Assembly: GCF_000744655.1 (NCBI RefSeq)
Contig: NZ_JQMJ01000004.1
Location: forward strand, 2,604,001 to 2,668,000
Length of the DNA: 64,000 nucleotides
Origin: Streptacidiphilus rugosus AM-16
GTDB lineage: Bacteria > Actinomycetota > Actinomycetes > Streptomycetales > Streptomycetaceae
Direction of reading: 5' to 3'
In this document: in pieces, positions 59,989 to 64,000 of the stretch
Layout of the letters: every line of letters begins with the position of its first letter
Numbering within the stretch: position 1 is the first letter of the stretch
Notes under the pieces: generated by a model
What the model was told of the DNA's origin: nothing
The model's input: only the letters and a program-made list of their open reading frames with translations
The model's database searches: none
Position numbers and translations under genes: made by a program

Positions 59989-60825
59989 TCAGCCGAATCG
60001 CCCCTCGACGTAGTCCGCCGTCCGGGGGTCGCGCGGCGCGTCGAACATGGCCCGGGTGGGGCCGTGCTCCACGATCCCACCGGGCACGCCCTGACTGGCC
60101 AGGAAGAAGGCGCACTGGTCCGAGACGCGCGCGGCCTGCTGCATGTTGTGGGTGACGATCACGATGGTCACCTCATGGACCAGCTCGCGGATCGTCTCCT
60201 CGATCCGGCGGGTGGAGCCCGGGTCCAGGGCCGAGCACGGCTCGTCCATGAGCAGCACCTCGGGCCTGACCGCCAGCGAGCGGGCGATGCACAGACGCTG
60301 CTGCTGCCCTCCGGAGAGCGCGCCGCCCGGCTGGCGCAGCCGGTCGCGGACCTCCGCCCACAGTCCGGCCCTGGTCAGGCACTCCTGGACCAGATGGTCC
60401 CGCTCGGCACGGCCGGCCCTGATCCCGGTGAGCTTCAGTCCGGCCACGACGTTGTCGTAGACGGACATGGCCGGGAAGGGGTTCGGCTTCTGGAAGACCA
60501 TCCCGATCCGGCGCCGCGCGTCGGTGAGCCGCAGGTCGGGTCGGTAGATGTCGGCGCCGTCCAGGAGCACCTCCCCGGCCAGGGCGGCGTCGGGGACCAG
60601 CTCGTGCATGCGGTTCAGGATGCGCAGGAACGTCGACTTGCCGCAGCCCGAAGGACCGATGAGGGCGGTGACCCGGCCGGCCGGCATGGCCAGTGACACC
60701 CGGTCGAGCACCTGGTGCCGGCCGAACCAGGCCGAGACCTCACGGGCCTCCAGGCCTCCGGGGCGCGCCGCCGGGCGTGGCGCGGGCAGGATCAGGGTCT
60801 GCTCCGGTTGCGCGGGGGCAGTCAT
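59989..60825 (-). CDS. PstB-like ABC transporter ATP-binding protein, without other Pst genes nearby
   Basis: A 278-residue ATPase very similar to phosphate-transporter PstB. It has Walker [15 protein letters not shown] near residue 55, the PstB-type segment [16 protein letters not shown]-loop [18 protein letters not shown] near 110, signature [16 protein letters not shown] near 168, Walker [16 protein letters not shown] and the H-loop [17 protein letters not shown]. It lies last in a minus-strand series after a sortase-like gene and a DUF916 protein gene, not with pstS, pstC or pstA. It may power a related transporter encoded beyond the window or have a surface-complex role. Confidence 0.88.
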
Positions 60826-60882
60826 CGAGGGTGCCTTTCTTGTCGTGCGAGCGGGGAGTGCGCGGGGTGGAACGCGCGGGGC

Positions 60883-61851
60883 TCAGATGAGGTTGGGCAG
60901 CAGCCTGACGACCTGGTCGGCGACGATCAGCCCCAGCGCCCCGAGGACCGGTACGCCCGGCGTCCACGCCTGCCAGCGGCCCCAGCGGACCCGGGCCAGG
61001 GTCAGCGCGACGGCGGCCAGCAGCAGCGCCTCGCCCCACAGCACGAGCGGCACCCAGGCGGAGACGTCGCCGTGCATCGGCAGTTCGGACTGGTCCAGCT
61101 GGGAGGCGACCAGGGGCCTGGCGGGCGCCGGACGGACCGCGCCGACCAGGTCCGCGTCGACCTGGAGCACCCCGTCCGGCGCGAACGCGGGACCGTCGGC
61201 GGTGACCAGTACCAGGCGGGCCTTGCCCGCGGCGAGCGGCGACGGCACCGGATCGCCGGCGCGGCGCACGTCCAGCACCCGGAAGACCTGGGTGCCCTGA
61301 CCGGTGATCAGGGTGAAGGTCTCGTCCGGCCGGAGCTGGTCGAGCGTCCCGAAGGGGCCGCCGAAGCCGGACTCCCGCGCCATCACCACACTCGTCCCTG
61401 CCTGTCCCGGCATGGGCGTGTCCCGGCGGTGGCCGGGCCCGTTCTCCAGCACCCCGGAGGTCGTGCCCTCGCGCACGACCTCACGCAGCCCCAGCTCCGG
61501 GACGGTGAGCAGGGCGACCGGCACGCCGAGCGGGAGCAGTCTGCCGTCCGGTCCCGTCTGCCCGACCGGCACGGTGCCCTGGGCGAGGGCCGACCGCAGG
61601 TCCGCGTAGGCGGTCTCACGGTCCCGGGCGTGGCGCACGTCCCCGACCGGGCCGATGTCGAGCAGCAGGCCGAAGATGAGCGCGGAGATGATCACCAGGA
61701 CCGCGCCGTACACGCATGCGGCGTCGAGACGCCGCCGCTTCGGCGCCGGGGCGGCCGGCGCGGGCGGGGGCTTCAGCAGCGACGGCCCGGCCGGGGGAAC
61801 CGAGGGGGCGGGCGGCGGCGGAGGCGGCCAGGGAGGGGTGACCACGGTCAT
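60883..61851 (-). CDS. Sortase-like membrane protein lacking the catalytic cysteine
   Basis: A 322-residue protein: Pro-rich cytoplasmic start (1-40), membrane helix at about 47-66, a sortase-fold domain at about 90-240 and two C-terminal membrane helices (268-287 and 299-317). The sortase features are VLENGPGHRRDTPMPGQ with His141, and the strand ARLVLVTADGPAF near 211-223. In sortases the latter reads TxxTC; here Ala218 stands at the Cys position and the usual downstream Arg is also missing, so transpeptidase activity is unlikely. The ATG overlaps the stop of the DUF916 gene (ATGA), indicating coupled translation. Probably structural or a ligand-binding pseudo-enzyme. Confidence 0.85.
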   Translation of the reverse strand: MTVVTPPWPPPPPPAPSVPPAGPSLLKPPPAPAAPAPKRRRLDAACVYGAVLVIISALIFGLLLDIGPVGDVRHARDRETAYADLRSALAQGTVPVGQTGPDGRLLPLGVPVALLTVPELGLREVVREGTTSGVLENGPGHRRDTPMPGQAGTSVVMARESGFGGPFGTLDQLRPDETFTLITGQGTQVFRVLDVRRAGDPVPSPLAAGKARLVLVTADGPAFAPDGVLQVDADLVGAVRPAPARPLVASQLDQSELPMHGDVSAWVPLVLWGEALLLAAVALTLARVRWGRWQAWTPGVPVLGALGLIVADQVVRLLPNLI

Positions 61852-63779
61852 CGCTGCACCGCCTTCGCCGGAACCGCCGTGTCCTTGCGACGGGCCGCGG
61901 CGGCCGTCGCCGCCTTGGCCCGCACCACCTGGGCGCGCCGTCGGCGCAGGGCCGCGACACCGAGGCCGGTCAGCAGCGCGGCTCCGGCGGCCATGGCCAG
62001 CCAGGACGCGACCGGGGTGCCGCCCGGCCGGGGTCGGGCCGCCGGGAGCGGCGCCTTCGCCGATGCGGCGGTCGTGGGCGGCGGCTCGCTGCTCTGCGGC
62101 ATGGTGACCGGGACGGTCCGGTCCGCGGTCCAGGCGCCTGGCGTGGCGAAGGTCAGCGTGCCGACGAAGTCGCGCAGGTGCGTGGTCCCGAAGCGGGGCC
62201 GGCAGTAGACGTCGACCCGGTAGCGGCCGTGCAGGCTGACCACGCCGTTCTGACGCGCGACGGCGCGCAGGGTCTGCACCAGCGGGACCGTGTAGCCGCC
62301 GGTCGAGGCGGCCGGATAGATCGACGCGGCGGAGACGCCCAGGTCGGAGACGCCGCCCGCGGGGAGCCCCGGACCGGAGACGGAGGCCGAGAGCCACTGG
62401 CCGGGCTCGGGGCAGCGGCCGGAGGTGGCCACGTTGATCGGGTCGTCGTCGTGCCCGTTCGGGTAGCCGAAGAACAGCACACCGGCGGCCCCGCCCGCGA
62501 CCGCGGTCGGCGAGGGCGAGGTCCCGTCGGCGAACGCGGCGGCCGGGCCGCCCAGCGCAGCGGTCAGCGCGGTTCCCAGCGCCAGCCCGAGGACGGCGAG
62601 TGAGCGCAGAGCCTTGCCGGGCCCGGCGCCGGGGACGGCGGGAACCGGAGCCTGGGGCGCGTTGGGAGCCGGAAGGCCGGTGGGCGCCGTGGGCTCGATC
62701 GGCGGGGCGGGTGAGGTGGGCCGGGCCGGCGCGGTGGGCGGCGCAGGGACACCGGGGGTACCGGAACCGCTCGGGCCGCCGCGGCGACGTCGGCGCAGGC
62801 GCAGCAGCGCACGGGCGATCAGCGCCAGGACCGGCAGCAGCAGGGCGATCAGCGTCCACGGCACGGTCGCGTAGTCGCGGTTGCTGACGGCGGAGGGCAG
62901 CGCAGGATCCGCGTCGCCGGGGACGGCCAGCGGATCGACGGTGATCGAGGCGGTGGACCAGAGTGTCGGAAAGACGCCCGGCACCCGCACCGTGTAGGTC
63001 TCCGTGTTGCCCGGCAGCAGTTCGGTCAGTGCCGCGGTGCCGCGCGCCGTGGCGACCAGGCCCAGGGCGTCGCGGACCCGGACGGCCTGCTGTCCGCCCA
63101 GGCGGATGTTGCCGGCGTTGCGCACGGTGTAGCTGACGGTCGTGCTGCCGGTGCCGAAGGGGTTGAGCGTGCCGCGGTAGTGCACGCTCACCGACTCGAC
63201 GACCAACCGCGGGCGCAGCGCCCCGGGAACCCGGAGGTGGATCCTGGTGCCGACGCGCTGGTCGACCGCGACGGCGTTGCCCTTGGCGTCGACGGAGTGG
63301 CGCCGCAGCGCGAGCACGATGCCGCCGGAGTGGTCGCCCGGTCCGGCGGTCGCCGGGACGGCGAGGGTGAACGGGACGATCTGACGGGTGCGCGGCGGCA
63401 GCACCACGGTGCCGGTGGCGAGGTGGACCCAGGAGCCGATGTCTACCGAGGTCCTTCCTGCGGGCAGCACGTCGTAGCCGCCGGTCGAGGTGTTGAAGGC
63501 GTCGGCCGCGTAGAGGGTCAGCGTCAGCGGCTCGTCGCCGTAGTTGAAGACCGCGATGTGGTCCTTGAGCTGCGCGCCGGGGGTCGCCGCGTAGGTGAAG
63601 GCGGCCCGCTGGTCGGGCGCGCCGGCGGAGGCCGGCTGGATGCCGAAGGTCTGCTGCTGGGCGGCCGGGGCGGCGGCGGGCGCGGCAGCGGCCGTCGCAC
63701 CGAGAGCGGTCAGCACGGTGGTGAGCAGGGCCGTCAGCGCGAGCAGCGCTCTCAGCGGCCTCGTCGGGGGGCGTGTCAT
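61848..63779 (-). CDS. DUF916 (WxL-interacting) protein fused to a second surface domain
   Basis: A 643-residue membrane protein. After a signal peptide (about 1-35) comes a DUF916/WIP peptidoglycan-associated domain (about 45-195) and an Ig-like domain up to about 285 (SVSVHYRGTLNPFGTGSTTV). A membrane helix (about 306-328) leads to a Pro-rich cytoplasmic stretch (333-388), then a second hydrophobic segment that looks like an embedded signal peptide (LALGTALTAALGGPAAAFAD), a second outer domain (425-560) and a final helix (592-611) with a basic tail. ATG 63779 has AAGGA about 11 bases upstream; GTG 63797 is an alternative. It follows a WxL-like gene and is coupled to the sortase-like gene. 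Confidence 0.82.
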   Translation of the reverse strand: MTRPPTRPLRALLALTALLTTVLTALGATAAAAPAAAPAAQQQTFGIQPASAGAPDQRAAFTYAATPGAQLKDHIAVFNYGDEPLTLTLYAADAFNTSTGGYDVLPAGRTSVDIGSWVHLATGTVVLPPRTRQIVPFTLAVPATAGPGDHSGGIVLALRRHSVDAKGNAVAVDQRVGTRIHLRVPGALRPRLVVESVSVHYRGTLNPFGTGSTTVSYTVRNAGNIRLGGQQAVRVRDALGLVATARGTAALTELLPGNTETYTVRVPGVFPTLWSTASITVDPLAVPGDADPALPSAVSNRDYATVPWTLIALLLPVLALIARALLRLRRRRRGGPSGSGTPGVPAPPTAPARPTSPAPPIEPTAPTGLPAPNAPQAPVPAVPGAGPGKALRSLAVLGLALGTALTAALGGPAAAFADGTSPSPTAVAGGAAGVLFFGYPNGHDDDPINVATSGRCPEPGQWLSASVSGPGLPAGGVSDLGVSAASIYPAASTGGYTVPLVQTLRAVARQNGVVSLHGRYRVDVYCRPRFGTTHLRDFVGTLTFATPGAWTADRTVPVTMPQSSEPPPTTAASAKAPLPAARPRPGGTPVASWLAMAAGAALLTGLGVAALRRRRAQVVRAKAATAAAARRKDTAVPAKAVQR

Positions 63780-63940
63780 CGCGGGCGGATCCTTCACACT
63801 GGCGGGTGACTGGGCAGGCTGTCCCGCCGCACCCCGGCGGGGCGGTGCGACGGGACGGCCATCAATGGCGGCCTTCAGTGACTTCGCTGAGAGGACGTCA
63901 CATCACGGTCGGAGGGGAGCGTGGTGCGAGTGGCGGAACG

Positions 63941-64000
63941 TCACATCACGGTCAGCGTGAGGACCCCGGTGTAGGTGCCCGCCTTGGTGGAGGTCGGCGC
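63941..64000 (-). CDS. C-terminal end of a probable WxL-like surface protein (partial)
   Basis: Only the last 19 codons and the TGA at 63943-63941 are inside the window. They read APTSTKAGTYTGVLTLTVM, the strand pattern that closes WxL-like and related beta-sandwich cell-surface domains (AGTYTGxLTxTV). It would be the first visible gene of the surface cluster on the minus strand, 161 bases before the DUF916 gene. The gene continues beyond the window, so identity is tentative. Confidence 0.55.
   Translation of the reverse strand, partial: APTSTKAGTYTGVLTLTVM

Follow-up and report, generated by a model that had tools for sequence, protein, structure and literature searches.

A Pst-type importer cluster with an inactive sortase-like protein and PstS-like proteins bearing C-terminal membrane helices in Streptacidiphilus rugosus and other Actinomycetota

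What kind of system places a WxL-type protein, a DUF916 protein, a sortase-like protein and a PstB-like ATPase in one run of genes? The question is raised by the end of the window, by which we mean the whole 64,000-nucleotide stretch that was analysed (C4:2604001-2668000 of the 9.0-Mb genome of the soil actinomycete Streptacidiphilus rugosus AM-16). An earlier note on this DNA had described these four minus-strand genes, and coordinates and family models confirm all of them. With the DNA past 64000 added as locus L003 (window coordinate = L003 coordinate + 55999), they become the downstream end of nine consecutive minus-strand genes in a run that extends beyond 64000, and the extension, which the note had recommended, brought in the full WxL-like gene together with pstC and pstA-pstS. 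From upstream to downstream, the features are:

73967-73988: PHO-box-like repeat
73436-73870 (L003:17437-17871), minus strand: gene for a DUF1508/YegP-like protein (PF07411 weak here, E 0.02)
72417-73439, minus strand: pstC (TIGR02138)
69476-72325, minus strand: pstA-pstS fusion (TIGR00974 for PstA, TIGR00975 for PstS)
66720-69479, minus strand: BigS, a giant PstS-fold protein of 919 aa, by profile and structure kinship to PstS
65617-66600, minus strand: SmallS, a secreted PstS-like protein of 327 aa (PF12849 below cut-off)
63941-65518, minus strand: WxL-type protein of 525 aa, with its stop at 63941 and its last 60 bases (63941-64000) in the window
61848-63779, or from a GTG start at 63797, minus strand: DUF916 (WxLIP_PGBD) fusion (PF06030)
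60883-61851, minus strand: pseudo-sortase (PF04203)
59989-60825, minus strand: ABC ATPase of the PstB type, with which the run ends (TIGR00972)

The nine genes are likely one transcription unit, since three neighbour pairs (DUF1508-like/pstC, pstA-pstS/BigS and DUF916/sortase-like) overlap by four bases and the remaining gaps are about 57-161 bases. The last of these overlaps, at 61848-61851, is the one already reported between the ATG of the sortase-like gene and the preceding stop. The small DUF1508/YegP-like gene lies at the head or flank of the cluster in ten loci and in L136, and its relative in L023 exceeds the PF07411 cut-off.

The ATPase, which had been seen as an odd addition to a Csc-type complex, is instead the PstB of a complete second Pst-type importer, since pstC and pstA-pstS sit just past 64000. 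PstC (256.3 bits against TIGR02138) and PstA (204.6 bits against TIGR00974) lie above the NCBIfam curated cut-offs of 196.45 and 193.45, while PstS (TIGR00975, 202.2 bits against 205) and PstB (TIGR00972, 335.3 bits, E 2e-100, against 343.2) fall narrowly below theirs; the Walker and signature motifs of PstB are intact by eye. PstSCAB is the textbook high-affinity phosphate importer, and the cluster resembles it in having PstC, PstA, PstB, a PstS with a near-complete phosphate-site motif and, in many members, PHO-box-like promoters. Its PstS, by contrast, is tail-anchored instead of lipid-modified, and in this genome it forms a fusion with PstA. Further differences are the addition of BigS, SmallS, the pseudo-sortase and often WxL/DUF916, and the usual occurrence beside a separate pst. 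The same genome carries a second pstC-pstA pair at C4:7076674, in an operon (L124) whose PstS has a lipobox. A pstC is present in all 29 other genomes with a pseudo-sortase match or fragment; at least two pstC places are listed for 24 of the 29, including genomes of 1.0-1.7 Mb, and one for G140, G060, G137, G050 and G021, the sole pst found in G137 adjoining the pseudo-sortase. The earlier note would have taken its own reading as refuted if an ordinary pst operon followed at once past 64000 and DUF916 were not conserved; a pst operon is indeed there, but it is an abnormal one, and DUF916 is kept in about half of the clusters. The PstA-PstS fusion fits a tight coupling of receptor and permease. 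As a defining trait of the cluster it was dropped, being present only in the window locus (L003) and L018 among 30 loci.

The sortase-like protein consists of an N-terminal transmembrane (TM) helix, a sortase domain and two C-terminal helices ending in LLPNL. It scores 41.5 bits against PF04203 (cut-off 26.6) and 48.7 bits against the NCBIfam class E sortase model, below the cut-off of 160. The earlier proposal that it is inactive is borne out by its active-site region, which reads VVMARES...LVTADG as against VVSGHRT...TSC in the control sortase of L088. Among the pseudo-sortase loci, which number 47 with L017-L024 and the window locus, the catalytic Cys is found in 0/47, the His in 1/46 (L024) and the Arg in 1/46, whereas each is found in 24/24 control sortases, the control Cys lying exactly in the aligned column in 20 of the 24 and a few residues off in four. 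These controls were chosen from the weaker matches of class-wide and phylum-wide searches, and G271 (118 bits) and G300 (100 bits), which retain the catalytic His and Cys, were treated as controls. In a search of 148 class genomes with an alignment of nine pseudo-sortases, the matches fell into two separate groups: 28 genomes at 130 bits or more, with most matches extending to the C-terminal LLPNL, and further matches at 105 bits or less, mostly ending near position 230. Two of the latter, from G050 and G021, belong to the pseudo-sortase family as fragments at contig starts. In a phylum sample of 198 genomes, six reached at least 130 bits, of which four (G231, G320, G162 and G148) lie outside the class, and the matches in G242, G262 and G301 scored 112-114 bits, each with internal stops. 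An AlphaFold model of the window protein was of low confidence (pLDDT 55); the 50 listed of its 210 PDB matches in Foldseek are all sortases.

The pseudo-sortase is thus a distinct conserved family without the sortase active site. It shares with class E sortases (PF04203) the sortase domain and a GPGH...PGQ segment, but lacks the catalytic Cys, His and Arg, has two added C-terminal helices, is linked to pst genes and keeps company with proteins without LPxTG. We give hardly any credence to the idea that it retains some activity through a different nucleophile and joins protein tails to the wall. Such an activity could account for the invariance of GPGHRRDT and PGQ across nine aligned members, but Cys, His and Arg have been lost together in nearly all members, and LPxTG is found in 0/30 cluster PstS and 1/33 BigS proteins.

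How constant is the company of the pseudo-sortase? Linkage was counted in those 21 of the 47 loci whose flanks exceed 7 kb on each side, every stretch being assigned to its best family. BigS accompanies the pseudo-sortase in 18 of the 21, PstS, SmallS and PstB in 19 each, PstA in 17, PstC in 14 and the DUF1508-like protein in three; each of the seven loci without PstC has a pstC across, or at most 3.4 kb past, the edge of the stretch. The 24 control sortase loci had no cluster component save general ABC ATPases in seven, which fall far under the PstB threshold; the flanks of one control locus (L089) are just 4.5-6 kb. While the pseudo-sortase is in every cluster by construction of the search, it is tied to BigS independently: in the 148 genomes both occur in 25, the pseudo-sortase alone in three (G015, G060 and G137), BigS alone in two (G067 and G069, where the contig stops short of the expected position of the sortase gene) and neither in 118 (Fisher p 8e-23). 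Chance adjacency is ruled out by the control loci and the co-occurrence table. The loci behind these counts are non-independent, with three close Streptacidiphilus and several genomes with two copies, and the loci that gave most of the counts had also served to iterate the profile models, control loci L102-L123 having been searched later. Two copies of the cluster are seen in some genomes (L056-L058, L060, L066 and L067, in G059, G134 and G113); the stretches covered for L056 and L057 show no pstB, and SmallS is present three times in L058. In the distant members L087, L100 and L101, the pseudo-sortase and pst genes are found with no clear BigS or WxL/DUF916, a second PstS-like ORF standing in for BigS, and this arrangement may represent an earlier state of the system. 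A search of a plasmid collection found no BigS, a single weak pseudo-sortase match (over 34% of the query) and 11 DUF916 records.

The DUF916 and WxL proteins had led the earlier note to infer a surface-anchoring or uptake assembly around them. A surface or uptake assembly stands, being recurrent, uncharacterised, distinct from a plain Csc complex and equipped with an inactive sortase, but WxL/DUF916 is an optional accessory of it, found in about half of the loci. Likewise, the expected recurrence of the neighbourhood was found for the pseudo-sortase with BigS, PstS and PstB, while DUF916 joins them in just 11 of the 21 loci and a WxL domain in 12. We therefore consider it very improbable that the locus encodes mainly a WxL/DUF916 surface-attachment complex with the sortase and ATPase as odd additions. 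This account can point to those counts and to the adjacency of WxL and DUF916 genes in five of five other actinobacterial loci compared, but it is largely refuted by the pseudo-sortase loci that lack WxL (9/21) or DUF916 (10/21) and still have BigS, PstS and PstB. DUF916 is also only loosely tied to pseudo-sortase genomes: it occurs in 37 of the 148 genomes, 14 of the 28 with and 23 of the 120 without a pseudo-sortase. A plain Csc complex was rejected as the main account on the same ground, since roughly every second cluster lacks WxL/DUF916.

The cluster resembles the Csc systems of Firmicutes (WxL plus DUF916/DUF3324) in its adjacent WxL and DUF916 genes and in a large WxL protein with Ig-like domains; it differs in having no DUF3324 match in a Pfam scan of the DUF916 protein, in being joined to an ABC importer and in showing the pair in about half of the clusters. 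The WxL protein has an N-domain, two Big_3_5 Ig-like domains (PF16640, 101.2 bits) and a C-terminal WxL domain; PF13731 (WxL) is matched by 13 of 28 aligned domains of this C-domain family, the window's own WxL domain having no Pfam model match. DUF916 scores 25.1 bits on the protein and 28.9 bits in the genome search against PF06030 (cut-off 27.3), and is followed by a TM helix, a second extracellular domain that belongs to one family with the WxL protein's N-domain, and a C-terminal TM helix. As an alignment of 28 domains (A4) shows, this extracellular domain spans about 115-120 residues, has two invariant cysteines and occurs in the DUF916 fusion, in the WxL protein and also in separate proteins, of which several are TM-tailed; none of the 28 matched Pfam. 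LPxTG, borne in Csc systems by a small protein (CscD), is absent from the last 90 residues of the PstS, BigS, SmallS, WxL and DUF916 proteins of the window cluster, and an LPITG is present in one N-domain protein of L021.

The five other WxL/DUF916 loci (L004 in the same genome, L013 in Embleya, L014 in Clavibacter, L015 in Streptomyces and L016 in Cellulosimicrobium) show no PstC-, PstA- or PstS-like match, and the PstB-like matches of L014 are a sugar transporter ATPase. Since such pairs occur elsewhere without pst genes, the importer cluster seems to have acquired, in some of its members, a wall-anchoring module of general use. L014 and L016 adjoin genes for family 43 glycosylhydrolases and sugar transporters, and in L015 a glycoside hydrolase lies a few kb from the pair. 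The pairs of L014, L015 and L016 sit on plasmids. L004 (G000:C4:3163000-3182000), the second WxL/DUF916 locus of this genome, without pst genes, also encodes a 612-aa protein that matches no Pfam model and one of 390 aa in which a neocarzinostatin-like domain is recognised (PF00960, E 1e-5). In the available parts of two papers, Firmicute Csc clusters are proposed to serve in carbon-source acquisition (PMC1534035), and DUF916 and metallophosphatases are frequent neighbours of domain Ang-2, not of pst genes (PMC12537917).

PstS of Gram-positive bacteria is usually exported as a lipoprotein. All 30 cluster PstS proteins instead have a C-terminal TM helix, and no lipobox was found in 29 readable N-terminal regions; the canonical PstS of 12 of the same genomes have no TM tail (0/12) and in 11 of 12 cases a lipobox, and their pst loci contain no pseudo-sortase, WxL or DUF916. 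By pattern, the phosphate-site signature is present in all 30, with Arg at the key position in 23, His in five and Gln in two. The window PstS retains GSTW, GSS.GR and R-S-D-G-S-G-T-T, and has Glu at the position of Asp56 in the E. coli numbering. BigS shows its kinship to PstS in a profile alignment (97.6%) and in the model of a relative from L020 (mean pLDDT 63, pTM 0.70), for which PstS structures match first (top E 3.5e-10). Thirty of 33 BigS proteins have a TM tail, and none of 35 has the phosphate motif; the closest named relatives are from three Streptacidiphilus species, with best segments 76-78% identical. SmallS scores 23.7 bits against PF12849, below the cut-off of 27, yet a profile of eight members finds phosphate-type binding proteins in the PDB (best E 2.1e-7). 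It has no tail and no LPxTG (0/37), and by pattern a signature of its own, PQ.GSGTR, in 25 of 36. Because BigS is without the phosphate motif and SmallS has its own signature, two of the three binding proteins may, judging from their sequences, bind something else or nothing; BigS in particular could be a PstS-like protein without a ligand site and with a structural role.

If the importer serves under phosphate starvation, its promoters might be expected to carry PHO boxes. Score weights were set from the Streptomyces consensus, and 19 cluster promoters were picked among the 47 loci for an unambiguous first gene with DNA available upstream of it, their starts being set by hand. At p < 0.05, a PHO box was found in 12 of 12 canonical pst promoters, 11 of the 19 chosen cluster promoters (leaving eight without a significant score) and two of 60 random windows. 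Scores of at least 23.3 were reached by 8/19 cluster promoters, 8/336 random windows and 1/24 control sortase promoters, and the cluster promoters outscore random windows (p 9e-7). In the window itself the PHO box is weak, with a score of 22.4 (p 0.037) that is equalled or exceeded by 16 of 336 random windows. Part of this result is post hoc: a first scoring with shuffled controls in 10 loci gave p 0.215 for the window and p of at most 0.015 in four of the 10, after which the weights, the length of the windows and the null were changed and positive and negative controls added. PHO-box control in many cluster members is supported, and because the earlier scoring gave less, the evidence is support and not proof.

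On balance, and with only a little more belief than doubt, we read the sequences as those of a second Pst-type importer that would be induced by phosphate starvation and would combine tail-anchored PstS-fold receptors with a dead sortase as scaffold. The PstS-fold proteins with C-terminal membrane helices would be held by these, not by lipid, on the outer face of the membrane, and the secreted SmallS would be retained in the wall in those loci that have the WxL/DUF916 module. SmallS and BigS would supply or position phosphate for PstS, which would pass it to PstC-PstA, powered by PstB. The sortase-like protein would no longer cleave or join proteins; as a three-helix membrane scaffold, it may use its sortase fold to dock the tail-anchored binding proteins at the permease. 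More tentatively, and with doubt somewhat outweighing belief, we propose that a sortase pseudoenzyme has become a docking platform, and that SmallS, BigS, PstS and PstCAB form a surface phosphate relay, which many Actinomycetota would have in addition to their classical Pst. A relay of this kind can be compared with the Isd haem system of staphylococci, in which wall and membrane receptors pass a nutrient to an ABC importer and a sortase gene lies in the cluster. The two are not known to share any domains except the sortase fold; in the present cluster the sortase is inactive, and PstS-like proteins serve as the receptors.

The same surface importer and scaffold might carry another phosphorus compound or oxyanion, such as an organophosphate, a phosphonate or a polyphosphate fragment. 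We regard this as rather unlikely, although it would explain why genomes usually retain the canonical pst too, the multiple pstC places in most positive genomes, small ones included, being in its favour along with the change of Arg to His or Gln in seven of 30 cluster PstS and the divergent sites of SmallS and BigS. Against another cargo speak the R-S-D-G-S-G-T-T motif of the window PstS, the PHO-box enrichment and the match of the L020 relative to solved structures of phosphate-binding proteins. It is still less probable that the cluster is a sensor rather than an importer, its surface Pst-like proteins reporting phosphate or wall state and the dead sortase serving as signalling partner. Both the usual presence of a parallel canonical importer and the loss of the binding motif in BigS would suit a sensor, but the PstB motifs (kept, by eye) and PstC/PstA scores above the cut-offs point to transport. 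Nor is any kinase or regulator shared beyond four Streptacidiphilus-like loci (which have a MarR-like neighbour in common, by eye) among the 25 recurrent groups of extra ORFs listed. One of these groups, a secreted Ig-like/WxL-type family judged by eye from one member, occurs in 19 loci, and the others are mostly shadow frames or close relatives.

In the available parts of a review on phosphate transport in actinobacteria (PMC7866108), PstSCAB and Pit are the sole transporters named as universally conserved in the actinobacteria studied, and several Pst copies are noted for M. tuberculosis; that paper nowhere uses 'second pst', 'two pst' or 'additional pst'. A description of the cluster was not found among the matches listed for open-access literature on pseudo-sortases, actinobacterial WxL/DUF916, and PstS with sortase or DUF916, as far as their text was available, a scope that leaves aside subscription papers and preprints. 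The Pst-type importer is of a known kind, and its conserved association with a pseudo-sortase was not found described. Together, these observations suggest an undescribed way of capturing nutrients at the cell surface, here and in distant relatives. If this is true, a second, surface-built version of Pst, found in 28 of the 148 class genomes sampled and combining a conserved inactive sortase and a degenerate giant PstS, would add a new design for nutrient capture, and with it a functional family of sortase pseudoenzymes.
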